Positions 12,184 to 29,223 of a stretch of DNA of 64,000 bases are shown here, in pieces. The position numbers were made by a program, and so were the translations under genes. This DNA is from Streptomyces sp. NBC_00457 (GTDB taxonomy: Bacteria; Actinomycetota; Actinomycetes; Streptomycetales; Streptomycetaceae), in contig NZ_CP107905.1 in assembly GCF_036014015.1 (NCBI RefSeq), forward strand, positions 6,634,001 through 6,698,000. The letters are read 5' to 3'. Under the pieces are notes generated by a model, which saw only the letters and a list, made by a program, of their open reading frames with translations, had not been told where the DNA came from and did not search any database. Each line of letters opens with the position of its first letter. Position 1 is the stretch's first letter.

Positions 12184-12433
12184 GTATCTCGCGTTCCGAT
12201 GAGTTGGGCAGGGCCGGACAGACAGAGTAATCGCCGCCGACCCCCCTTCCGTAAGCCCAAGTACCACCCAGCTCCGTCATAGCTCTGTCACAACACGAAC
12301 CGTTCGCAAACGGGCACATGGGGTCACCGGCCGAGTCGTGCGCCCAGGACGCACCTGTGAGCCCTGAGCTGCATTCACTCCCGAACCCCCATTGCCTCCC
12401 CGCGCGAAGGGAAGATGCGGGATCATGTCTGCC

Positions 12434-13006
12434 ATGACCGAGGTGTCCTCGCTCACAGGGCGGTTGCTCGTGGCAACCCCCGCCCTGGCGGACCCGAACT
12501 TCGACCGCGCGGTGGTGCTCCTTCTCGACCACGACGAGAAGGGCTCGCTCGGTGTCGTCCTCAACCGCCCCACCCCGGTGGACGTGGGCGACATCCTGGA
12601 GGGCTGGGCGGATCTCACCGGGGAGCCCGGTGTCGTCTTCCAGGGCGGGCCGGTTTCGCTGGACTCGGCCCTCGGCGTGGCGGTCATCCCGGGCGAGCCC
12701 GCGGCCGGGTACGTGCCGCTGGGCTGGCGCCGGGTGCACGGCGCGATCGGGCTCGTGGACCTGGAGGCCCCGCCGGAACTGCTCGCCTCGGCCCTCGGCT
12801 CCCTGCGCATCTTCGCCGGTTACGCCGGCTGGGGCCCCGGCCAGCTGGAGGACGAGCTGGTGGAGGGTGCCTGGTATGTCGTGGAGTCGGAGCCCGGCGA
12901 CGTGTCCTCCCCGTCCCCGGAAAGACTCTGGCGCGAGGTCCTGCGCCGCCAGCGCAACGAGCTCGCGATGGTCGCCACCTATCCGGACGACCCATCGCTC
13001 AACTGA
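12434..13006 (+). CDS. YqgE/AlgH family protein (UPF0301)
   Basis: 190 residues, full length for the family. Signatures: LTGRLLVATPALADPNFDRA at the N-terminus, GVVLNRPTPVDV, and VFQGGPVSLDSALGVAV near the middle, then FAGYAGWGPGQLEDEL. The function is not firmly known; some homologues influence alginate regulation or envelope processes. ATG 12434 is preferred; ATG 12425 (MSAMTEV) lies three codons upstream and is equally possible. It is followed 29 nt downstream by the DUF3039 gene, probably in one transcript. Confidence 0.9.
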   Translation: MTEVSSLTGRLLVATPALADPNFDRAVVLLLDHDEKGSLGVVLNRPTPVDVGDILEGWADLTGEPGVVFQGGPVSLDSALGVAVIPGEPAAGYVPLGWRRVHGAIGLVDLEAPPELLASALGSLRIFAGYAGWGPGQLEDELVEGAWYVVESEPGDVSSPSPERLWREVLRRQRNELAMVATYPDDPSLN

Positions 13007-18287: not shown

Positions 18288-18558
18288 CCGAACAGGTAAG
18301 GGCGCACGCATGGGAACACGCATGGGAACAGGTCAGGGAAAAGCCCTCAAGTGTCACCGAAGAGTGGCAATTCGCGCGCACGGTTGATGTCGTGCGAAAA
18401 CGGACCATCTCGCTGGTGAGGGGGGCGAATGCCTCCTAGCGGACCCCCGCGTTCGGGCCCTGCGAAGATGTGCCAGAGTTGCCACGTCCGCCCTGTCAGC
18501 ACGTACCGTACGGCAACACAGGTGGGACCAGGTGGGGCAGCGGGAAGGGGCAGCCGGT

Positions 18559-19452
18559 TTGACCACGAGCGCACCGCAGGCGGCGCAGGCCGTCACGCTG
18601 CCTACGACGCTGGACGAGGCCGTGGCGGCCCTCACGGCCATGCCCGCCGCCGTTCCCGTGGCCGGCGGCACCGACCTCATGACCGCCGTCAACTCCGGGC
18701 AGCTCAGGCCCGCCGCACTGGTGGGCCTCGGCAAGATCAGCGAGATCCGCGGCTGGCAGTACCTCGACGGGCACGCGCTGCTCGGCGCCGGCCTCACCCA
18801 TGCGCGCATGGGCCGCCCCGACTTCGCCGCCCTGATCCCGGCGCTCGCCGCCGCGGCGCGCGCGGCGGGCCCACCGCAGATCCGCAACGCGGGCACCCTG
18901 GGCGGCAACATCGCGACGGCCGCCCCCACCGGGGACGCGCTTCCCGTACTGGCCGCCCTGGAGGCGACGCTGATCATCGCGGGCCCGGGCGGAGCCCGCC
19001 GGGAGATCCCGGTGTCGCACCTGCTGGCCGGTGTGGAGATGCTGCGCGGCGGCGAACTCATCGGGTACGTGCGCGTGCCCCTGCTGCACGCCCCGCAGGT
19101 CTTCCTCAAGGCCACCGGCCGCACCGGCCCCGGCCGCGCGGTCGCGTCGGTCGCGCTGGTCCTCGACCCCGCCCGGCGCGGAGTGCGGTGCGCCGTCGGT
19201 GCCATAGCGCCGATGCCGCTCAGGCCCCTGGACGCCGAGCAGTGGGTCGCCCGGCTGATCGACTGGGACAACAGCCGCGCGATCGTCCCCGAAGCGCTGG
19301 CCGCCTTCGGGGAGTACGTCGCCGCGGCCTGCATCCCCGATCCGGTCCCGGCCGAGGACGGCTCCGTACAACAGCTTCCGCCCGCCGTACTGCACCTGCG
19401 GCGCACCGTCGCCGCGCTGGCCCGACGAGCACTGGGGAGGGCGCTGTCGTGA
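18559..19452 (+). CDS. Molybdenum hydroxylase FAD-binding subunit (XdhB/CoxM type)
   Basis: 297 residues. The FAD-binding motifs are intact: VAGGTDLM near 33-40 and RNAGTLGGNIATAAPTGD near 111-128. The CO-dehydrogenase flavoprotein C-terminal domain is present (VALVLDPARRGVRCAVGAIAPMPLR). It would pass electrons from the Fe-S subunit to NAD or another acceptor. TTG 18559 is chosen because GGGAAGGGG precedes it by 8 nt; GTG 18532 is the alternative. It is first in a tightly coupled operon (its stop overlaps the next start). The upstream gap of 271 nt (18288-18558) holds no recognisable gene or operator. Confidence 0.88.
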   Translation: MTTSAPQAAQAVTLPTTLDEAVAALTAMPAAVPVAGGTDLMTAVNSGQLRPAALVGLGKISEIRGWQYLDGHALLGAGLTHARMGRPDFAALIPALAAAARAAGPPQIRNAGTLGGNIATAAPTGDALPVLAALEATLIIAGPGGARREIPVSHLLAGVEMLRGGELIGYVRVPLLHAPQVFLKATGRTGPGRAVASVALVLDPARRGVRCAVGAIAPMPLRPLDAEQWVARLIDWDNSRAIVPEALAAFGEYVAAACIPDPVPAEDGSVQQLPPAVLHLRRTVAALARRALGRALS

Positions 19453-21272
19453 CCGACGACCAGCACGGAGAGGGCACGCCCCAGAGCGGCAGCCGCTGGG
19501 ACCCGCTGCCCCAGGGCGACTACGACGACGGCGCCACCGCCTTCGTGAAACTCCCCGAAGGGGGCATCGACGCCCTCCTGGCCTCCGCCGACAGCCCGCT
19601 GGCCGCGCCCGGCCACGGCTATGTGCCGCCGCAGATAACGGCCGACCCCGCGGGGACCGACCCCGCCCCCGGCGGCTGGCCGGCGCCCGCCGAACCCGTG
19701 CAGTGGCCCGACCCGAACGCGGTACCCCAGGACACCGGGAGCGACCGGTTCTCGTACAACCCGGGGGCGACCGGGCAGTGGAACTTCGGGACCGTCGATG
19801 GATCGGCGGGATCGGCGGAGCACACGGCAGCGGCGCCGGGCCACGATGTGACCGGGCAGTGGTCGATCCCGGTCGCCGGAGGCGAGCTTCCGGACGAATC
19901 GGGCGAGTTCACCACGTCGTCCCTGGTCGAGCAGTGGGGCGGCACACCGCCGGCCACACTCCCCGGCGGCGCGGCCGCTCCCTGGGCGACGGAGGCCGCC
20001 GGGCAGCCGTGGGCGCGGGACGCGGCGAACACCGCGCCTCCCGCCGACGCCGCGGTGGACGCACCCGGCCAGACGCACGGCGAGGTGTCCGCGCAGGCGT
20101 ACACGAGGCCACACCCGGGGACTCCGGCGCAGCAGCACGGGGGCGCTCCCGCCCGGCCGCACGCGGACGCTCACGGGGAACGCGCGGCACAGCCGCACGC
20201 GGAGGAGTACGGGGAACGCGCGGCTCAGCCGCACGCGGAGGAGTACGGAGAGCGCGCGGCTCAGTCGCACGCGGACGCTCGTGCCCAGCAGCACCCTGAA
20301 CTCCATGCCTCGCAGGACCCTGAACTCCACGCCCCGCAGCACGACGAGGCACCCGCCCGGCCCGCATCCGACGGGGCCCACGACCGACAGTCCGCGGACG
20401 GAACCGCCGTAGCGGACTCACTGAGCGCGCACGAGAGAGCCGTAGCCGCCGCACAGGCCGCTCAGAGGGCCCGTGAGGCAGCCCAGGCGGCCGAGGATGC
20501 CCAGGGGGCCGCAGAGGCCGCTGAGAGGGCCGTGGAGCGTTCCGGGGAGCCCGAGCCGGAGCGGGGCTCGGAGCCGGAGTCGCGTGCCGACGCGGAGGCC
20601 GGTGAGGAGTCCGCCGGAGCCGAGGCCCAGGACGAGGCGCCCCCGCCGCCCGGCGAGGAGCACCCGCTCGCCTCGTACGTCCTGCGCGTCAACGGCGTCG
20701 ACCGGCCCGTCACCGACGCCTGGATCGGCGAATCGCTGCTGTACGTCCTGCGCGAACGGCTCGGCCTCGCCGGTGCCAAGGACGGCTGCTCGCAGGGCGA
20801 GTGCGGCGCGTGCAACGTCCAGGTAGACGGCCGGCTCGTCGCCTCCTGCCTGGTGCCCGGGGTCACCGCGGCCGGCAGCGAGGTCCGTACGGTCGAGGGC
20901 CTCGCGGAGGAGGGCCACCCCTCCGACGTGCAGCGGGCGCTCGCCCGGTGCGGCGCGGTGCAGTGCGGCTTCTGCGTGCCGGGCATGGCGATGACCGTGC
21001 ACGACCTGCTGGAGGGCAACCCGGCGCCGACCGAACTCGAGGCCCGCCAGGCGCTGTGCGGCAACCTGTGCCGCTGCTCCGGCTACCGCGGCGTCCTGGA
21101 CGCCGTCAAGGAAGTCGTCGCCGAACGCGAGGCGCACCGCGCCGCCGACGCTGAGACGGACGCGAACGAGGCACGTATCCCGCACCAGGCGGGCCCGGGA
21201 GCCGGCGGCGTCAACCCGTCGGCGTTCGAGCCGCACGACCAGGCGTACGGACAGGACGGAGGCCCGGCGTGA
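19449..21272 (+). CDS. Molybdenum hydroxylase 2Fe-2S subunit with about 400-residue disordered extension
   Basis: 607 residues against about 160-200 for the family. The enzyme part is C-terminal, about 405-565: a plant-type [2Fe-2S] loop with Cys447, Cys452, Cys455 (CSQGECGACNVQVDGRLVASC is spread over 447-467) and a second cluster domain (QCGFCVPGMAMTV, then CGNLCRCSGYRG). All cluster cysteines are present. The first 400 residues are low-complexity, acidic and Pro/Ala-rich, with two TGQW motifs (about 116 and 140), three tandem GERAAQPHAEEY units (243-278) and an Ala/Arg/Glu helix (about 335-370). GTG 19449 overlaps the upstream stop and no internal start with a better site is evident, so the extension is probably translated. 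Its role is unknown. Confidence 0.85.
   Translation: MTDDQHGEGTPQSGSRWDPLPQGDYDDGATAFVKLPEGGIDALLASADSPLAAPGHGYVPPQITADPAGTDPAPGGWPAPAEPVQWPDPNAVPQDTGSDRFSYNPGATGQWNFGTVDGSAGSAEHTAAAPGHDVTGQWSIPVAGGELPDESGEFTTSSLVEQWGGTPPATLPGGAAAPWATEAAGQPWARDAANTAPPADAAVDAPGQTHGEVSAQAYTRPHPGTPAQQHGGAPARPHADAHGERAAQPHAEEYGERAAQPHAEEYGERAAQSHADARAQQHPELHASQDPELHAPQHDEAPARPASDGAHDRQSADGTAVADSLSAHERAVAAAQAAQRAREAAQAAEDAQGAAEAAERAVERSGEPEPERGSEPESRADAEAGEESAGAEAQDEAPPPPGEEHPLASYVLRVNGVDRPVTDAWIGESLLYVLRERLGLAGAKDGCSQGECGACNVQVDGRLVASCLVPGVTAAGSEVRTVEGLAEEGHPSDVQRALARCGAVQCGFCVPGMAMTVHDLLEGNPAPTELEARQALCGNLCRCSGYRGVLDAVKEVVAEREAHRAADAETDANEARIPHQAGPGAGGVNPSAFEPHDQAYGQDGGPA
20175..20282 (+). repeat. Three 36-bp tandem repeats within the Fe-S subunit gene
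   Basis: Units at 20175-20210, 20211-20246 and 20247-20282 encode GERAAQPHAEEY, GERAAQPHAEEY and GERAAQSHADAR-like sequence. DNA identity between units 1 and 2 is nearly complete, which suggests recent duplication by slippage. Confidence 0.85.
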
Positions 21273-23578
21273 GCAACGAAGCCGCCACCGCGACCACGGC
21301 CGCGGAGGCAGCCCCCGCCCCCGAGGAGATCCCGCACGGCCTCGGCGTGTCCTTGCACCCCGCCGACGCGGGCGCCAAGACCGAGGGCACGTTCCCGTAC
21401 GCGGCCGACCTGTGGGCCGAGGGCCTGCTCTGGGCCGCCGTCCTGCGCTCACCGCACCCGCACGCGCGCATTGTGTCGATCGACACGTCCCACGCGCGCG
21501 AGATGCCCGGCGTCCGCGCCGTCGTCACCCACGAGGACGTGCCCGGCGCACCCCGGTACGGCCGGGGCAGCGCCGACCGCCCGGTGTTCGCCTCCGAGGT
21601 CGTACGCCACCACGGCGAACCCATCGCCGCCGTCGCCGCCGACCACCCCGACACCGCGCGGATGGCCGCGGCGGCCGTCACCGTCGAGTACGAAGTACTC
21701 GACCCGGTGACGGATCCGGAACAGGCCTTCGAGGCCGAGGCGCTGCACCCCGACGGCAACCTGATCCGCCACATCCCGCTGCGCCACGGCGACCCGGACG
21801 CGGCCGGCGACATCGTCGTCGAGGGCCAGTACCGCATCGGCCGCCAGGACCCGGCGCCCATAGGAGCCGAGGCGGGTCTCGCGGTGCCGCGACCGGACGG
21901 CGGCGTCGAGCTGTATCTGGCGTCCACGGACCCGCACAGCGACCGCGACACGGCCGCCGCCTGCTACGGCCTGGAGCCCGACCGCGTGAAGGTCGTCGTC
22001 ACCGGCGTGCCCGGCGCGACCGCCGACCGTGAGGACCAGGGCTTCCAACTCCCGCTGGGCCTGCTGGCGTTGAAGACCGGCTGCCCGGTCAAACTGACCG
22101 CCACGCGCGAAGAGTCCTTCCTGGGCCACACCCACAGGCATCCCACGTTGTTGCGGTACCGCCACCACGCGGACGCCGAGGGCAAGTTGGTGAAGGTCGA
22201 GGCGCAGATCCTGCTGGACGCGGGCGCGTACGCGGACACCTCCTCGGAGGCGCTGGCCGCCGCGGTGTCCTTCGCCTGCGGCCCGTACGTCGTCCCGAAC
22301 GCCTTCATCGAGGGCTGGGCCGTACGCACCAACAACCCGCCCTCCGGTCACGTACGCGGAGAGGGCGCCATGCAGGTCGCCGCCGCGTACGAAGCCCAGA
22401 TGGACAAGCTGGCGAAGAAGCTCGGCGTCGACCCGGCGGAGCTGCGCCTGCGCACCGCGCTCGCCACGGGCGACGTCCTGCCGACCGGCCAGACCGTGAC
22501 ATGCCCCGCACCCGTGGCGGAGTTGCTCCAGGCGGTACGGGACTTCCCCCTTCCCGCGCTCCCCAAGGACACGCCCGAGGAGGACTGGCTGCTGCCCGGC
22601 GGCCCCGAAGGCGCGGGCGAACCGGGCGCGGTGCGCCGGGGAGTCGGCTACGGCCTCGGCATGGTCCACATGCTCGGCGCGGAGGGCGCGGACGAGGTCT
22701 CCACGGCGACCGTCAAGGTCCATGACGGAATCGCCACCGTCCTGTGCGCGGCCGTCGAGACCGGCCAGGGCTTCACCACCCTCGCCCGGCAGATCGTCCA
22801 GGAGACACTCGGCATCGACGAGGTGCACGTCGCCCCCGTCGACACCGACCAGCCACCGGCGGGCGCGGGCTGCCGGGGCCGCCACACCTGGGTGTCCGGC
22901 GGCGCGGTGGAGCGCGCGGCGAAGATGGTCCGCACGCAACTCCTCCAGCCCCTGGCCCACAAGTTCGGCATGTCCACGGAGCTGCTGCAGATCACCGACG
23001 GCAAGATCACGTCGTACGACGGAGTCCTGTCGACCACCGTCACCGAGGCGATGGACGGCAAGGAACTGTGGGCCACCGCCCAGTGCCGCCCCCATCCGAC
23101 GGAACCTCTGAACGAAGCCGGACAGGGCGACGCCTTCGTGGGGCTCGCCTTCTGCGCGATCCGCGCGGTCGTGGACGTCGACATCGAACTCGGCTCGGTA
23201 CGGGTCGTCGAACTGGCCGTAGCCCAGGACGTGGGTCGCGTCCTGAACCCCGCCCAGCTGACGGCACGAATCGAAGCGGGCGTCACACAGGGCGTGGGCA
23301 TCGCGCTGACGGAGAACCTGCGCACGGCACGCGGCCTGATCCGCCACCCCGACCTCACGGGCTACGCCTTGCCGACGGCCTTGGACGCGCCCGACATCCG
23401 CATCGTGAAACTGGTCGAGGAACGCGACGTGGTCGCCCCCTTCGGCGCGAAGGCCGCCAGCGCGGTACCGGTGGTGACGTCCCCGGCGGCCATCGCCTCC
23501 GCCGTCCGCGCCGCGACGGGCCGCCCCGTCAACCGCCTCCCGATCCGCCCGCAGGCCGCGGTGGTGACCGGCCAGTGA
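21269..23578 (+). CDS. Molybdenum-cofactor subunit of xanthine dehydrogenase family, active site altered
   Basis: 769 residues, full length for the molybdopterin subunit (XdhA/PucD type). The overall alignment is clear: TREESFLGHTHRHP, NNPPSGHVRGEG and PFGAK near 724-728. Several cofactor and catalytic motifs differ from the family. The usual GGAFGGRED loop reads VPGATADRED (247-256). The FRGFG motif reads VRGEG (362-366). The GVGEPP segment, whose Glu is the catalytic base in xanthine dehydrogenase (bovine Glu1261), reads AASAVP (729-734), so that Glu is Ala732. Substrate and even activity are therefore uncertain. GTG 21269 overlaps the Fe-S subunit stop, and the stop overlaps the 42-aa gene. 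Confidence 0.88.
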   Translation: MSNEAATATTAAEAAPAPEEIPHGLGVSLHPADAGAKTEGTFPYAADLWAEGLLWAAVLRSPHPHARIVSIDTSHAREMPGVRAVVTHEDVPGAPRYGRGSADRPVFASEVVRHHGEPIAAVAADHPDTARMAAAAVTVEYEVLDPVTDPEQAFEAEALHPDGNLIRHIPLRHGDPDAAGDIVVEGQYRIGRQDPAPIGAEAGLAVPRPDGGVELYLASTDPHSDRDTAAACYGLEPDRVKVVVTGVPGATADREDQGFQLPLGLLALKTGCPVKLTATREESFLGHTHRHPTLLRYRHHADAEGKLVKVEAQILLDAGAYADTSSEALAAAVSFACGPYVVPNAFIEGWAVRTNNPPSGHVRGEGAMQVAAAYEAQMDKLAKKLGVDPAELRLRTALATGDVLPTGQTVTCPAPVAELLQAVRDFPLPALPKDTPEEDWLLPGGPEGAGEPGAVRRGVGYGLGMVHMLGAEGADEVSTATVKVHDGIATVLCAAVETGQGFTTLARQIVQETLGIDEVHVAPVDTDQPPAGAGCRGRHTWVSGGAVERAAKMVRTQLLQPLAHKFGMSTELLQITDGKITSYDGVLSTTVTEAMDGKELWATAQCRPHPTEPLNEAGQGDAFVGLAFCAIRAVVDVDIELGSVRVVELAVAQDVGRVLNPAQLTARIEAGVTQGVGIALTENLRTARGLIRHPDLTGYALPTALDAPDIRIVKLVEERDVVAPFGAKAASAVPVVTSPAAIASAVRAATGRPVNRLPIRPQAAVVTGQ

Positions 23579-23703
23579 CGGCCCCCGACCCAGGTCCACC
23601 GCGATACGAACCACCGCCCAGCGCAGGGAAATTGCTGGTGTGGGCGCTGGTGTTCGTGTTCGCGGCGGTGGTGGTGGTGCTGGGCGGTATCTACTTCGCG
23701 TGA
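23575..23703 (+). CDS. 42-residue single-helix membrane peptide coupled to the Mo subunit
   Basis: GTG 23575 overlaps the Mo-subunit stop (GTGA), the same arrangement as the other joints of this operon. The peptide has a Pro-rich cytoplasmic N-terminus (MTAPDPGPPRYEPPPS) and one strongly hydrophobic helix (VWALVFVFAAVVVVLGGIYF) to the end. It matches no family I know. Translational coupling implies that it is made in step with the hydroxylase and might dock it, or another partner, to the membrane. Confidence 0.72.
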   Translation: MTAPDPGPPRYEPPPSAGKLLVWALVFVFAAVVVVLGGIYFA

Positions 23704-23914: not shown

Positions 23915-24778
23915 ATGAGCACGACCAGCGTGACTTGTATCGCGGCGACTGGCCTGACCGAGGGCGAGCCGGATCCGTTCGGGGTGGATGCGCCGCCGGG
24001 CCATGGGGTCTGGGGTGACGCGGGACAGGAGCAGTGCCTCGGGCAGCGGGTCGCCGAGCCGGACTTGTGCCTCCGGCAGCCGGGTGGCGATGAGCTGCTG
24101 TCGCTCGCCGAGCTGCGCCAGGAAGGCCGGCTGCGCACGCTGGTGCGATTCGCGTCGGCGGCCGATGAACTGGCCCGACTGCGCCACGAGTTCGCGGCCT
24201 ACGCGGGACGCTTCGGGCCGGGCGCGGTGGCGGAGGCCTCCCGCCGGCTGCTGGCCGTCTGGGAGGAGGGGACAGGCACTGCGATGCCGGCGTTCCGCAG
24301 CATGGGCGCCCTGATCCGCCCCCTCGCCTGGATCGCCGAGCCCGGCAGCGGCCTCGCACTCGACCTGCCGCCACGGCTGCTGGACGAGGAGTTCGGCACC
24401 GCATCGATCGTCCGCTTCGAGGACGTCGACTTCCCCACGGCCCTCACCCACGAACCCACCCGCCGCTTCCTCCGCGACGTGGGCCTGCCCGAAGAGGCCA
24501 CCCGGTTCACCCTGGACACGGACGTCCCCCCACGAACCCTCGCCGAGTACGCCACGGACGAGCGCGACGGCGACCTCGTACTCCCGCCCGGCACGGCCCA
24601 CCTGATACGCCTCGGCCACATCGCGGACGACACCAGCCTCGTGATCGACGGCGCGACGGGGACGGTCCTGTACTGGGCCGAGGGGGACGCGCTGCCGAGT
24701 CCTCTCAACACGGACCTCTCCACACTGGCGTTCACTCTGTGGCTGCTGCGGCGCGAAGAGAACCGAGACGGGAACTGA
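23915..24778 (+). CDS. SUKH-4-like immunity-family protein
   Basis: 287 residues. The second half (about 150-280) resembles SUKH-4 domains: VRFEDVDFPTALTHEPTRRF, FLRDVGLPEE, then a LIRLGHIADDTSLVIDGATG strand and a C-terminal FTLWLLRR helix. SUKH proteins are mostly immunity partners of polymorphic toxins, but no toxin gene is nearby, and in Streptomyces such genes are often solitary. The N-terminal 140 residues are unassigned. ATG 23915 follows GGGGGATTCC. The preceding gap (23704-23914) shows no clear element; a possible 20-codon frame at 23826 is not convincing. Confidence 0.7.
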   Translation: MSTTSVTCIAATGLTEGEPDPFGVDAPPGHGVWGDAGQEQCLGQRVAEPDLCLRQPGGDELLSLAELRQEGRLRTLVRFASAADELARLRHEFAAYAGRFGPGAVAEASRRLLAVWEEGTGTAMPAFRSMGALIRPLAWIAEPGSGLALDLPPRLLDEEFGTASIVRFEDVDFPTALTHEPTRRFLRDVGLPEEATRFTLDTDVPPRTLAEYATDERDGDLVLPPGTAHLIRLGHIADDTSLVIDGATGTVLYWAEGDALPSPLNTDLSTLAFTLWLLRREENRDGN

Positions 24779-24865: not shown

Positions 24866-25051
24866 TTGCTTCGTGTGTCGACCGTAGGGCGCTGTGGGGG
24901 AGGGGCTCAAGGGAAGCGGGGGTGGTGCAACGGGACTGCCATGCCGCGTTCATGAAACGGGGCGTGGGGGGCGGTCGTACGACCAAGGGCTGAGGTGGGG
25001 CCGTTCTCTCGACAGGGGTCAACGTGGGGTGTGGCCCTTACGCTGGCGACC

Positions 25052-26674
25052 ATGACCGCCCTCGAACCGAGCGACACCGACGTTGCTGATCCCGACGGCT
25101 CCTTGTCGGGCGCCGAGCGCGACGAGACCGTTCTGAGCCGTTCCTACCGTGCGCTCAGTGTCGGGATCGTCTCCGTCGTGCTGCTGATCGCCTTCGAGGC
25201 GACCGCTGTCGGGACGGCGATGCCGGTGGCGGCGCGGGAGTTGGACGGGGTGTCGCTGTACGCGTTCGCGTTCTCGGGGTACTTCACGACGAGCCTGTTC
25301 GGCATGGTGCTCTCCGGTCAGTGGTCGGACCGGCGAGGGCCGCTCGGGGCGTTGACCACGGGTATCGCTTCCTTCGCGGCCGGTCTGCTGCTGTCCGGCA
25401 CGGCGGGCGCGATGTGGCTGTTCATCCTGGGGCGGGCCGTGCAGGGGTTCGGCGGCGGGCTGGTGATCGTCGCGCTGTACGTCGTCGTGGGCCGCGCTTA
25501 TCCAGGGCGGCTGCAGCCCGCGATCATGGCGGCGTTCGCGGCGAGCTGGGTCGTGCCGTCGATCGTCGGCCCGCTCGCGTCGGGCGCGGTGACCGAACAC
25601 CTCGGCTGGCGCTGGGTGTTCGTCGGCATCCCGGTGCTCGTCGTCTTCCCGCTGGCGCTTGCACTGCCGCAGATACGGCGGCGGGCGGCGGGGCCGGTGG
25701 ATGGTTCGGGGAGTGGTCGGGCCGGCGGCTCGGTGGGCGGTCCCCTGGGCGGTCCGGCGGATGGTTCCGCGGACGGTTCCCGGGGCGGTTGGGCGGCCCG
25801 TCCCCTGGGCGGTTCGGTGGGCGACACCGTGGGTGGCACCGTGGGCCGCTCGGTGTCTGAAAAGCCTGCGCGGGTGCGCCGGACGGCCTCCTTCGATCGG
25901 CGTCGTATTCGGCTCGCACTCGGGATCTCGCTCGGGGCGGGGCTGTTGCAGTACGCCGCGCAGGATCTGCGGTGGTTGTCGGTGGTGCCCGGCGTGGTGG
26001 GTGCCGCGCTGCTGGTGCCGGCTGCTCTGGGGCTGTTGCCGCGCGGTACGTATCGGGCGGCCCGTGGGCTGCCGTCCGTCGTGTTGTTGCGCGGGGTGGC
26101 CGCGGGCTCCTTCATCGCTGCCGAGTCGTTCGTGCCGTTGATGCTGGTCACCCAGCGGGGGCTGTCGCCGACGCTGGCCGGGTTCTCGCTCGCGGCGGGT
26201 GGGGGGACGTGGGCGCTGGGGTCGTGGGTGCAGTCGCGGGCGCGGATGGCGCCGTACCGGGAACGGTTGATGACGCTCGGGATGGTGCTGGTGGCGGCCG
26301 CGATCGCCGCCGCGCCGAGCGTGCTGATCGAGTCGGTGCCGGCCTGGACCGTTGCCGTCGCCTGGGCGGTGGGCTGCTTCGGCATGGGGCTGGTGATCTC
26401 CTCCACGAGTGTGCTGTTGCTGAAGCTCTCCGCCCCCGAGGAGTCCGGCACCAACTCCGCCGCCCTCCAGATCTCCGACGGCCTCTCCAACGTCCTCCTC
26501 CTCGCGGCGGGCGGCGCGGCTTTCGCGGCGCTGGGTGGCGGCACGGTGTCGCATGCGGCGACGGAGGCGGCCGGTGCGGGGTCGCATCCGGCCGCGTTCG
26601 CCGCGGTGTTCTTGCCGATGGCGGGGGTGGCCTTGGTGGGGGCATGGGTGACAACGCGGCTGCGGGCCGCCTGA
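25052..26674 (+). CDS. MFS drug-efflux-type transporter (DHA2-like)
   Basis: 540 residues with about 14 predicted helices. Early motifs include FEATAVGTAMPVAARELDG (drug/H+ antiporter motif C-like position) and SDRRGPLGA, the loop 2-3 motif A. It probably exports a small molecule in exchange for protons. Residues about 210-270, in a cytoplasmic loop, are a Gly/Ser/Pro/Val-rich insert made of repeated CTGGGCGGT-type DNA words, absent from ordinary family members. ATG 25052 is chosen because the family-like sequence begins after it; the ribosome-binding site is weak. Codons are often G-ended, as in the IclR gene downstream. Confidence 0.85.
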   Translation: MTALEPSDTDVADPDGSLSGAERDETVLSRSYRALSVGIVSVVLLIAFEATAVGTAMPVAARELDGVSLYAFAFSGYFTTSLFGMVLSGQWSDRRGPLGALTTGIASFAAGLLLSGTAGAMWLFILGRAVQGFGGGLVIVALYVVVGRAYPGRLQPAIMAAFAASWVVPSIVGPLASGAVTEHLGWRWVFVGIPVLVVFPLALALPQIRRRAAGPVDGSGSGRAGGSVGGPLGGPADGSADGSRGGWAARPLGGSVGDTVGGTVGRSVSEKPARVRRTASFDRRRIRLALGISLGAGLLQYAAQDLRWLSVVPGVVGAALLVPAALGLLPRGTYRAARGLPSVVLLRGVAAGSFIAAESFVPLMLVTQRGLSPTLAGFSLAAGGGTWALGSWVQSRARMAPYRERLMTLGMVLVAAAIAAAPSVLIESVPAWTVAVAWAVGCFGMGLVISSTSVLLLKLSAPEESGTNSAALQISDGLSNVLLLAAGGAAFAALGGGTVSHAATEAAGAGSHPAAFAAVFLPMAGVALVGAWVTTRLRAA

Positions 26675-27423: not shown

Positions 27424-29223
27424 GTGACTACCACCGCCGCCAGCTCCTCGTCGTCGCATCACCTGTCACCCGCGTTCCCCGGCCGCGCCCCCTGGGGTAC
27501 CGCCAGCAAGCTGCGTGCCTGGCAGCAAGGGGCGATGGAGAAGTACATCCAGGAGCAGCCGCGTGACTTTCTGGCCGTGGCGACGCCCGGTGCCGGAAAG
27601 ACGACGTTCGCGCTGACTCTGGCGTCGTGGCTGCTGCACCATCACGTCGTGCAGCAGGTGACCGTCGTCGCGCCGACCGAGCATCTGAAGAAGCAGTGGG
27701 CGGAGGCCGCGGCACGTATCGGGATCAAGCTCGACCCGGAGTACAGCGCGGGGCCGCTCGGCAAGGACTATCAGGGTGTCGCGGTCACGTACGCCGGTGT
27801 CGGCGTGCGGCCCATGCTGCACCGCAATCGCGTCGAGCAGCGCAAGACTCTCGTCATCCTCGACGAGATCCATCACGCCGGTGACTCCAAGTCCTGGGGT
27901 GAGGCCTGCCTGGAGGCCTTCGAACCGGCCACCCGCCGGCTCGCGCTCACCGGTACGCCGTTCCGGTCCGACACCAACCCCATCCCCTTCGTGGCCTACG
28001 AGGAGGGCAACGACGGGATCCGGCGCTCCGCCGCCGACTACACGTACGGCTACGGCTCCGCCCTCTCCGACGGCGTCGTCCGGCCCGTCATCTTCCTCTC
28101 CTACAGCGGCAACATGCGGTGGCGCACGAAGGCCGGTGACGAGGTCGCCGCCCGGCTCGGCGAGCCCATGACCAAGGACGCGGTCAGCCAGGCCTGGCGC
28201 ACCGCCCTCGATCCGCGTGGCGAGTGGATGCCGAGCGTGCTGCGCGCCGCCGACCAGCGGCTGACCGAGGTCCGCAAGGCCGTCCCGGACGCGGGCGCGC
28301 TCGTCATCGCGTCCGACCAGGACTCGGCGCGTGCGTACGCCAAGCTCATCCGCGAGATCACGGGCAGGAAGGCGACGCTCGTCCTGTCCGACGACGCCGG
28401 TGCGTCCGGCCGGATCGACGAGTTCAGCGGCAGCAACGACCGGTGGATGGTCGCGGTCCGGATGGTGTCGGAAGGCGTCGACGTGCCGCGGCTCGCGGTC
28501 GGGGTGTACGCCACGACCATCTCCACGCCGCTGTTCTTCGCGCAGGCCGTCGGCCGTTTCGTACGGTCCAGGCGGCGCGGCGAGACGGCCTCGGTCTTCC
28601 TCCCCACCATCCCCGACCTCCTCACTTTCGCCAACGAGATGGAGGTCGAGCGCGACCACGCCCTCGACAAGCCCAAGAAGGAGGGCGAGGAGGACCCGTA
28701 CGCCGAGGAGGAGAAGCTTCTCCAGGAGGCCGAGCAGCAGCAGGACGAGGACACCGGCGAGCAGGACCAACTCCCCTTCGAGGCGCTGGAGTCCGACGCC
28801 GTCTTCGACCGAGTCCTGTACGACGGCGCCGAGTTCGGCATGCAGGCCCACCCCGGCAGCGAGGAGGAGCAGGACTACCTAGGTATTCCTGGGCTGTTGG
28901 AGCCCGACCAGGTGCAGATGCTGCTGCAGAAGCGGCAGGCCCGGCAGATCGCGCACAGCCGTAAGAAGCCGGACTCCGAGGCCGACCTGCTCGAACTGCC
29001 CGCCGAGCGGCGGCCGGTGGTCAGCCACAAGGAGATGATGGAGCTGCGCAAGCAGCTCAACACGATGGTGAGTGCGTACGTTCACCAGAGCGGCAAGCCG
29101 CACGGGGTGATTCATACGGAGTTGCGGCGCGTGTGCGGTGGGCCGCCGAGCGCGGAGGCCACGGCGGGGCAGCTGCGGCAGCGGATCGCGAAGGTGCAGG
29201 AGTGGGCCACGCGGATGCGGTGA
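27424..29223 (+). CDS. SF2 DEAD/DEAH-box helicase, restriction-enzyme R-subunit-like
   Basis: 599 residues. Walker A TPGAGKTTFA near 56-65, DEAH-type box ILDEIHHAG near 147, motif III LTGTPFRSD near 175, and motif VI QAVGRFVRSRRRG near 375. The C-terminal part (about 405-599) is acidic, coiled and unassigned, with an EEEKLLQEAEQQQDED stretch. Similar proteins are single-copy and conserved in streptomycetes; no methylase or nuclease gene is adjacent, so a defence role is not supported here. GTG 27424 follows ACCGGAGACC. The upstream 117 bp may hold its promoter. Confidence 0.88.
   Translation: MTTTAASSSSSHHLSPAFPGRAPWGTASKLRAWQQGAMEKYIQEQPRDFLAVATPGAGKTTFALTLASWLLHHHVVQQVTVVAPTEHLKKQWAEAAARIGIKLDPEYSAGPLGKDYQGVAVTYAGVGVRPMLHRNRVEQRKTLVILDEIHHAGDSKSWGEACLEAFEPATRRLALTGTPFRSDTNPIPFVAYEEGNDGIRRSAADYTYGYGSALSDGVVRPVIFLSYSGNMRWRTKAGDEVAARLGEPMTKDAVSQAWRTALDPRGEWMPSVLRAADQRLTEVRKAVPDAGALVIASDQDSARAYAKLIREITGRKATLVLSDDAGASGRIDEFSGSNDRWMVAVRMVSEGVDVPRLAVGVYATTISTPLFFAQAVGRFVRSRRRGETASVFLPTIPDLLTFANEMEVERDHALDKPKKEGEEDPYAEEEKLLQEAEQQQDEDTGEQDQLPFEALESDAVFDRVLYDGAEFGMQAHPGSEEEQDYLGIPGLLEPDQVQMLLQKRQARQIAHSRKKPDSEADLLELPAERRPVVSHKEMMELRKQLNTMVSAYVHQSGKPHGVIHTELRRVCGGPPSAEATAGQLRQRIAKVQEWATRMR

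Follow-up and report, generated by a model that had tools for sequence, protein, structure and literature searches.

A conserved xanthine oxidase-family complex of Streptomycetaceae with a dismantled molybdenum site: a probable pseudoenzyme

Solved enzymes related to the complex described here, such as the alpha subunit of 4-hydroxybenzoyl-CoA reductase (1RM6) and the D. gigas aldehyde oxidoreductase (1SIJ), carry the catalytic Glu (in ASEG and GVGE, respectively) and the GGxFG loop, unlike the altered Streptomyces protein. The active paralogue in the same genome (G000:C1:2608333-2610651), a PucD-type xanthine dehydrogenase, has the same fold, and in both loci the genes for the FAD, [2Fe-2S], and large subunits lie together. 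However, XdhC, a xanthine/uracil-type permease, and PucR are encoded near the active paralogue but not near the altered locus, and the altered protein differs from PucD-type enzymes in its missing Glu, its changed loops, and a tail on its [2Fe-2S] subunit. In Carbonactinospora thermoautotrophica, a homologue (P0122, at locus L045) with 55-58% identity shares the synteny with AlgH-like, MFS, and helicase genes as well as a long [2Fe-2S] tail, but it retains the Glu (GAGEPP), GGAFG, and CO_deh_flav_C; this homologue may be catalytically active, but on a substrate other than xanthine. At the C. thermoautotrophica loci L045 and L232, RGHG and GQRGD replace RGFG and GGRED.

Forms of such enzymes that lack the molybdenum cofactor (Moco) have also been described. 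In R. capsulatus, the xanthine dehydrogenase of an xdhC mutant contained no Mo cofactor while retaining Fe-S and FAD (PMC2997495, in excerpt). The human AOX1 G1269R structure (6Q6Q) is Moco-free (PMC6487702, in excerpt), as is, going by its entry title, the CODH structure 1FFU. The fold persists in all three, together with Fe-S and FAD in the R. capsulatus enzyme; however, these are impaired or cofactor-deprived versions of active enzymes, whereas the altered Streptomyces complex is an evolved state. Among titles and the opening parts of abstracts of open-licence PMC papers, no inactive or Moco-free bacterial xanthine oxidase-family complex of this kind was found.

The altered locus lies in a 64-kb stretch of Streptomyces DNA, referred to here as the window, with the following features:

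12392..13006, + strand: AlgH-like (DUF179) gene, the 5' synteny anchor
18559..19452, + strand: FAD subunit, with a likely TTG start at 18559 inferred from alignment (the listed ORF begins at 18532)
19449..21272, + strand: [2Fe-2S] subunit, 607 aa, an N-terminal tail followed by two [2Fe-2S] domains
21269..23578, + strand: large subunit with a dismantled Mo site, GTG start, 769 aa, no stop inside
23575..23703, + strand: 42-aa ORF of membrane type with one hydrophobic stretch, GTGA-coupled to the large-subunit gene
24995..26674, + strand: MFS transporter, a synteny anchor in part of the families
27424..29223, + strand: DEAD/ResIII-type helicase, the 3' synteny anchor

The first-pass annotation of this DNA described the operon as fully translationally coupled, and GTGA overlaps at 19449-19452 and 21269-21272 bear this out. 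A third, at 23575-23578, leads from the large-subunit stop into the 42-aa ORF, which was missing from the earlier list. The start of the [2Fe-2S] gene overlaps the FAD stop likewise in 68/69 named Streptomyces loci where both genes were read. Of the 80 named Streptomyces loci, 27 have the motif of the 42-aa ORF (YEPPPxxGKLLxWxLxF...VVVLGGVYF-like) within 600 nt, and it was not found within that distance in the other 53. Directly after the operon lies a SUKH-4 immunity-type gene (23915-24778, + strand) that is absent beside the operon at some of the compared loci. The minus strand of the window holds long overlapping frames in which no nameable gene was found; such opposite-strand frames are usual in high-GC DNA.

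By descent, the large subunit is filed in the xanthine oxidase family: Ald_Xan_dh_C, MoCoBD_1, and MoCoBD_2 all score well over their Pfam cut-offs in the 769-aa ORF, giving the three-domain large subunit and the family fold, and the operon encodes, at the sequence level, two [2Fe-2S] clusters with eight Cys ligands. The best NCBIfam match is PucD (TIGR03196) at 652.2 bits, under the equivalog cut-off of 783.65. In alignments with solved enzymes, GVGELP of the D. gigas aldehyde oxidoreductase falls on AASAVP, placing Ala732 at the position of the catalytic Glu, and FRGYG falls on VRGEG, placing Glu365 at the Phe/Tyr/His position of the RGxG loop. With residue roles as in bovine XDH, position 365 is that of the substrate-stacking Phe in active enzymes. 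The GGxFGx position reads PGATAD (P248-G-A-T-A-D-R-E-D256), the RGxG loop reads R363-G-E365-G, and further changes include RGRH and R667 in place of Gln. The three motif changes first reported (PGATADRED for GGAFGGRED, VRGEG for FRGFG, and AASAVP at the GVGEPP site) were thus found again, and what defines a functional Mo-hydroxylase, the catalytic Glu of GxGE(x)P and the GGxFG and SxSR loops around the Mo-pterin, is lacking. We therefore class the protein neither as a functional molybdenum hydroxylase nor as PucD. Low AlphaFold pLDDT in the cofactor loops (71 at residues 191-200, 70 at 251-260, and 66 at 531-540) was considered as a sign of a disordered pocket and rejected: the Glu-bearing Carbonactinospora protein, modeled with the same 90 sequences, dips alike (65, 52, and 61), so these values are no evidence for disorder.

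The changes are fixed across the family. They were tabulated in 151 Streptomycetaceae orthologue rows (71 plus the best 80 of 582 relatives, with two partial rows and the duplicate of the window set aside; 150 are unique) and in 48 active-type rows (the active paralogue plus other families), a grouping made after the motif table had been seen and with the eroded Catenulispora rows kept separate. Position 732 is Ala in 149 and Ser in two of the 151 rows, and Glu in 48/48 active-type rows. Position 365 is Glu in 151/151, compared to Phe in 48/48; position 248 is Pro in 150 of 151, compared to Gly in the 48; and position 667 is Arg in 151/151, compared to Gln in the 48. Of the columns that do not vary among the active-type rows (177), 38 are altered in >90% of the 151 rows, including 732, 248, 251, 365, 537, and 667. 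The reported absence of the catalytic Glu therefore holds clade-wide (0/151 rows with Glu); in the altered rows no new Glu appears in any column within 8 of position 732, and none of the 48 active-type rows shares the altered residues. A protein-database search with the altered protein gave, for the Glu column in the 120 matches listed of 477, 98 Ala, 5 Ser, 14 gaps, and 3 others, with no Glu; the same search with the Carbonactinospora protein (120 listed of 206) gave 115 Glu, 4 gaps, and 1 Arg.

At the genus level, all 295 genomes searched have a match at E<=1e-100, and the altered gene is present in 293, as assigned by best E-values among the matches listed, where the active paralogue never scores better than about 1e-181 in Streptomycetaceae. 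The two exceptions (G008 and G050, in 740 and 1770 contigs) show the active paralogue only. In an order-level draw that has many genomes in common with this set, the altered gene was found in 375/376 Streptomycetaceae genomes, the exception (G576) being in 770 contigs. Median NG86 dN/dS against the window was 0.096 for the large subunit (85 pairs), 0.162 for the FAD subunit (74), and 0.197 for the C-part of the [2Fe-2S] subunit (83), the 85 loci searched including that of the active paralogue itself. The large-subunit gene is under strong purifying selection. Identity to the copy in the window's genome was compared between the altered and the active protein in 22 other genomes: the altered protein had the higher value in 6 and the lower in 10 (the gap reaching 7 points), and in 6 the two were equal (altered/active: G122 98/96, G207 95/95, G192 91/84, G218 87/92, G492 82/89, G418 70/73); the altered protein thus diverges at about, but not exactly, the pace of the active xanthine dehydrogenase of the same genomes. 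The earlier claim that the operon is not decaying is upheld by its intactness, its presence in nearly all genomes, and the low dN/dS. Two marks of a pseudoenzyme are found here: the catalytic motif is missing clade-wide, and the gene is intact under purifying selection.

The best reading of these data is a clade-wide pseudoenzyme complex of the xanthine oxidase family that is hydroxylase-dead, probably Moco-free, and retained for redox relay or sensing through its FAD and [2Fe-2S] clusters, with a probability of about 0.58. Its parts differ in strength: in our judgement hydroxylase activity has very likely been lost, the complex probably lacks Moco, and a redox rather than purely structural role, favored by the cysteines, is reasonably likely. 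The ancestor, probably a xanthine dehydrogenase of PucD type encoded among purine-degradation genes, would have given rise to a lineage, leading to Streptomycetaceae and the Catenulispora family, in which the large subunit lost its Glu and its molybdopterin loops were rebuilt or lost while the fold was retained, and the small subunit would have kept both [2Fe-2S] clusters. The mature complex would most likely contain FAD and two [2Fe-2S] clusters, without the molybdenum cofactor, and would transmit or report electrons, the former Mo subunit now offering a scaffold or a surface for docking. A tether to a partner would be provided by the long tail of the [2Fe-2S] subunit, joined in some species by the small membrane protein; this tethering, like electron flow and the sensing or relay role, is our inference. 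The more specific proposal, that Streptomycetaceae and the Catenulispora family carry in their core genome a tail-tethered, Moco-free FAD/[2Fe-2S] redox relay or sensor that has discarded the metal site and kept the electron wire, is tentative, at somewhat less than even odds. If the reading is correct, the complex would be a natural example of the electron-transfer half of a molybdoenzyme working without the active site, and a core complex lacking an assigned role would gain testable ones. Many of the database matches that bear a name are listed as 'xanthine dehydrogenase family protein molybdopterin-binding subunit', a label that would be misleading, were the complex Moco-free, for a gene of almost every Streptomyces genome examined.

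Syntenic relatives suggest where the complex came from. The order AlgH-like, FAD, [2Fe-2S], large subunit, MFS, helicase, IclR is common, wholly or partly, to Streptomycetaceae (f1), Carbonactinospora (f2), the Catenulispora family (f3, named through P0242), and a locus (L243) of another actinobacterial family (f11). L243 has all canonical motifs and adjoins uricase, HIUase, allantoicase/OHCU decarboxylase, and DUF6986 genes (L243:2512-13593), a purine-catabolism neighborhood of the kind associated with PucD equivalogs and absent from the window; therefore the ancestral job was probably purine degradation. In the Catenulispora family, rows of the Catenulispora type read GGADTHRED, RGGG, and VGDL, with Asp at the Glu position, while other rows lack GGxFG, mostly read PWPGG, and have Arg there. 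No Glu occurs among the 42 matches of this family listed, one sequence ending before the site, and position 365 is Gly in the rows read. The Gln before CGFC is Pro or Gly in 7/7 loci of the family, and the eight cluster Cys are retained in 7/7. On these motifs, the Mo site appears more eroded in the Catenulispora family than in Streptomycetaceae. A careful tree, which carries a long-branch warning, places the two families on one side of a 100/100 branch, opposite Carbonactinospora, f11, and the active rows, and a second analysis agrees with the grouping. Loss of the Glu may thus have had a shared origin in the two families rather than occurring twice independently, subject to the same long-branch warning.

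Whether Moco reaches the complex bears on the main reading from two sides. Twenty genomes were examined, namely 16 with this gene as their single match plus G192, G202, G145, and G148, and in five of them (G272, which is one contig, G043, G214, G113, and G135) the altered protein is the only MoCoBD_2 protein. XdhC_C was over cut-off in 0/5 of these single-member genomes vs 15/15 of the others; G272 has one sub-threshold match (21.3 bits vs a cut-off of 29.7). The altered genes of the five contain no stop and read RGEG, with Ala at 732 in four and Ser in G272; the [2Fe-2S] motifs are present in all five. The FAD gene could be read in three of them, since in G113 and G135 the contig stops short of it. 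Motifs and identities suggest that the five stem from about three lineages and so do not count as five independent events. Survival of the altered operon in these genomes suggests that the complex does not depend on XdhC. XdhC is also missing beside the window locus, the nearest of the seven copies in that genome being >2 Mb away, but 4/11 other Mo-subunit loci of the genome likewise have none close by, so this absence alone is weak evidence. On the other side, MoaC is present in the five single-member genomes, and thus Mo-MPT can be made. R. capsulatus xanthine dehydrogenase made in E. coli without XdhC had Mo-MPT inserted, with most of the sulfur ligand missing (PMC2997495, in excerpt), indicating that XdhC is not strictly needed for insertion. 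Loss of MoaC was tried as a test for Moco and was uninformative, MoaC being present in 291/295 genomes and the four without it being 79-93% complete.

Much of the pterin side also remains in Streptomycetaceae. Gln500 is kept in 144/150 and Gln193 in 133/150 unique rows, Arg363 and Arg538 in 150/150, and the Gln before CGFC in 86/87, so Moco binding is possible; changes on the cofactor side include the SxSR serine, Gln to Arg at 667, and loss of Gln193 in 17/151 rows. Our confidence was set slightly lower because so much of the pterin side remains and because the five genomes are not independent.

In the strongest alternative, the protein is an active enzyme of migrated chemistry that still binds Moco, with Glu365 serving as a base or a ligand to act on a new substrate or in a new reaction. 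Glu365 in 151/151 rows, Glu255 in 149/150 unique rows, and nearly fixed His361, His539, and Arg667 do resemble a rebuilt pocket, and fixation of new residues such as Glu365 and Arg667 could mean just that; Moco synthesis, as judged by MoaC, is present as well. However, the rows read from the Catenulispora family have Gly at 365 and the family has lost most of the site, the cofactor loops changed together, and five genomes retain the gene without XdhC, which leaves this alternative unlikely. The first-pass annotation had offered both another substrate or cofactor chemistry and an electron-transfer or sensory complex: the latter stays among the favored readings, while the former is made less likely by the cofactor-side changes, the Catenulispora erosion, and the five XdhC-less genomes.

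The partner subunits bear on a second alternative, also improbable, in which the complex is a purely structural or regulatory pseudoenzyme whose clusters and FAD only stabilize the fold and whose action consists of partner binding. Each of the eight [2Fe-2S] ligand Cys is kept in 86 or 87 of 87 Streptomycetaceae rows (one row being gapped), and their retention despite erosion elsewhere argues against this alternative, since a structural role might tolerate cluster loss. The FAD subunit retains AGGTDLM and TLGGN and matches FAD_binding_5 at 139.6 bits (Pfam). However, no Pfam match to CO_deh_flav_C was found in it at E up to 1, whereas the domain is recognized in the FAD subunits of the active paralogue, L243, and Carbonactinospora. 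The initial statement that both subunits keep all binding residues therefore stands for the eight Cys and the two FAD motifs but not for this domain, whose divergence weakens the claim of a redox-active FAD and fits the structural alternative.

The tail fits that alternative too, being long and bearing conserved motifs. It comprises about 400 N-terminal residues of the [2Fe-2S] subunit, encoded from 19449 to about 20700 in the window, is of low complexity (disorder being judged from composition), and evolves fast apart from the short motifs ATAFVKLPEGG, SPLAAPGHGYVPP, TGQWSIP, and ESGEFTTSSL. Because of it, the subunit spans 479-992 aa in 69 named Streptomyces loci, and the whole protein extends to 1786 residues in L239. 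Only a short tail, or none, is seen in the Catenulispora family, in the family of L243, in the active paralogue, and in two deep Streptomycetaceae genera, and none of the Streptomyces motifs was seen in the long tail of Carbonactinospora. A search for the motifs elsewhere in the same genome gave no convincing second copy (best other match E 0.053). Two extra Cys adjoin the second [2Fe-2S] cluster in most Streptomycetaceae, one 5 residues before the CGFC cysteine (80/87 rows) and one 4 residues before the first LCRC Cys (85/87). They are absent in the Catenulispora family (7 rows), Carbonactinospora (1), and active (3) rows, and vary independently in a few genera; the pair may be a redox switch.

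The complex might instead be a catalytically silent companion to the cell's active xanthine dehydrogenase. The common fold and the identity of about 44% between the two proteins would suggest this, but co-occurrence largely refutes it: 16/295 genus genomes retain the gene with no second match at E<=1e-100 (12 of the 16 were rechecked at 1e-30, all near full length), and the five single-member genomes have no other family member at all, making it very improbable.

Locus order also connects the operon to S. coelicolor. There, SCO2944 and SCO2945 are sugar permeases (PMC4852450, in excerpt), and the window order of solute-binding protein, permeases, GH20, FAD, [2Fe-2S], and large subunit matches, so that SCO2942-2940 are taken as the operon and SCO2940 as the large-subunit gene. 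Protein data exist for 886 S. coelicolor genes, one of which is SCO2940, its annotation reading 'xanthine dehydrogenase, putative'; it is also one of nine called as changing between growth and stationary phase only by combined analysis (PMC3770449, in excerpt). The SigmaE promoter of SCO2939 (29 letters; PMC6767563, in excerpt) was tried as a lead and rejected as too weak, its best match in the 80 named loci having 6 mismatches and lying 3' of the gene in L211.

A decaying pseudogene or assembly artifact, for which one might cite the splitting of the gene into two overlapping pieces in G119, G171, and G224, is hardly tenable given its presence in 293/295 genomes, a dN/dS of about 0.1, and the protein data for SCO2940, the identity of which rests on locus order. 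The active paralogue is also in two pieces in G119 and G171, though not in G224, which suggests assembly indels. Separately, the large-subunit gene of the active xanthine dehydrogenase has another copy, in two overlapping pieces, at G173:C9:737631-739999.
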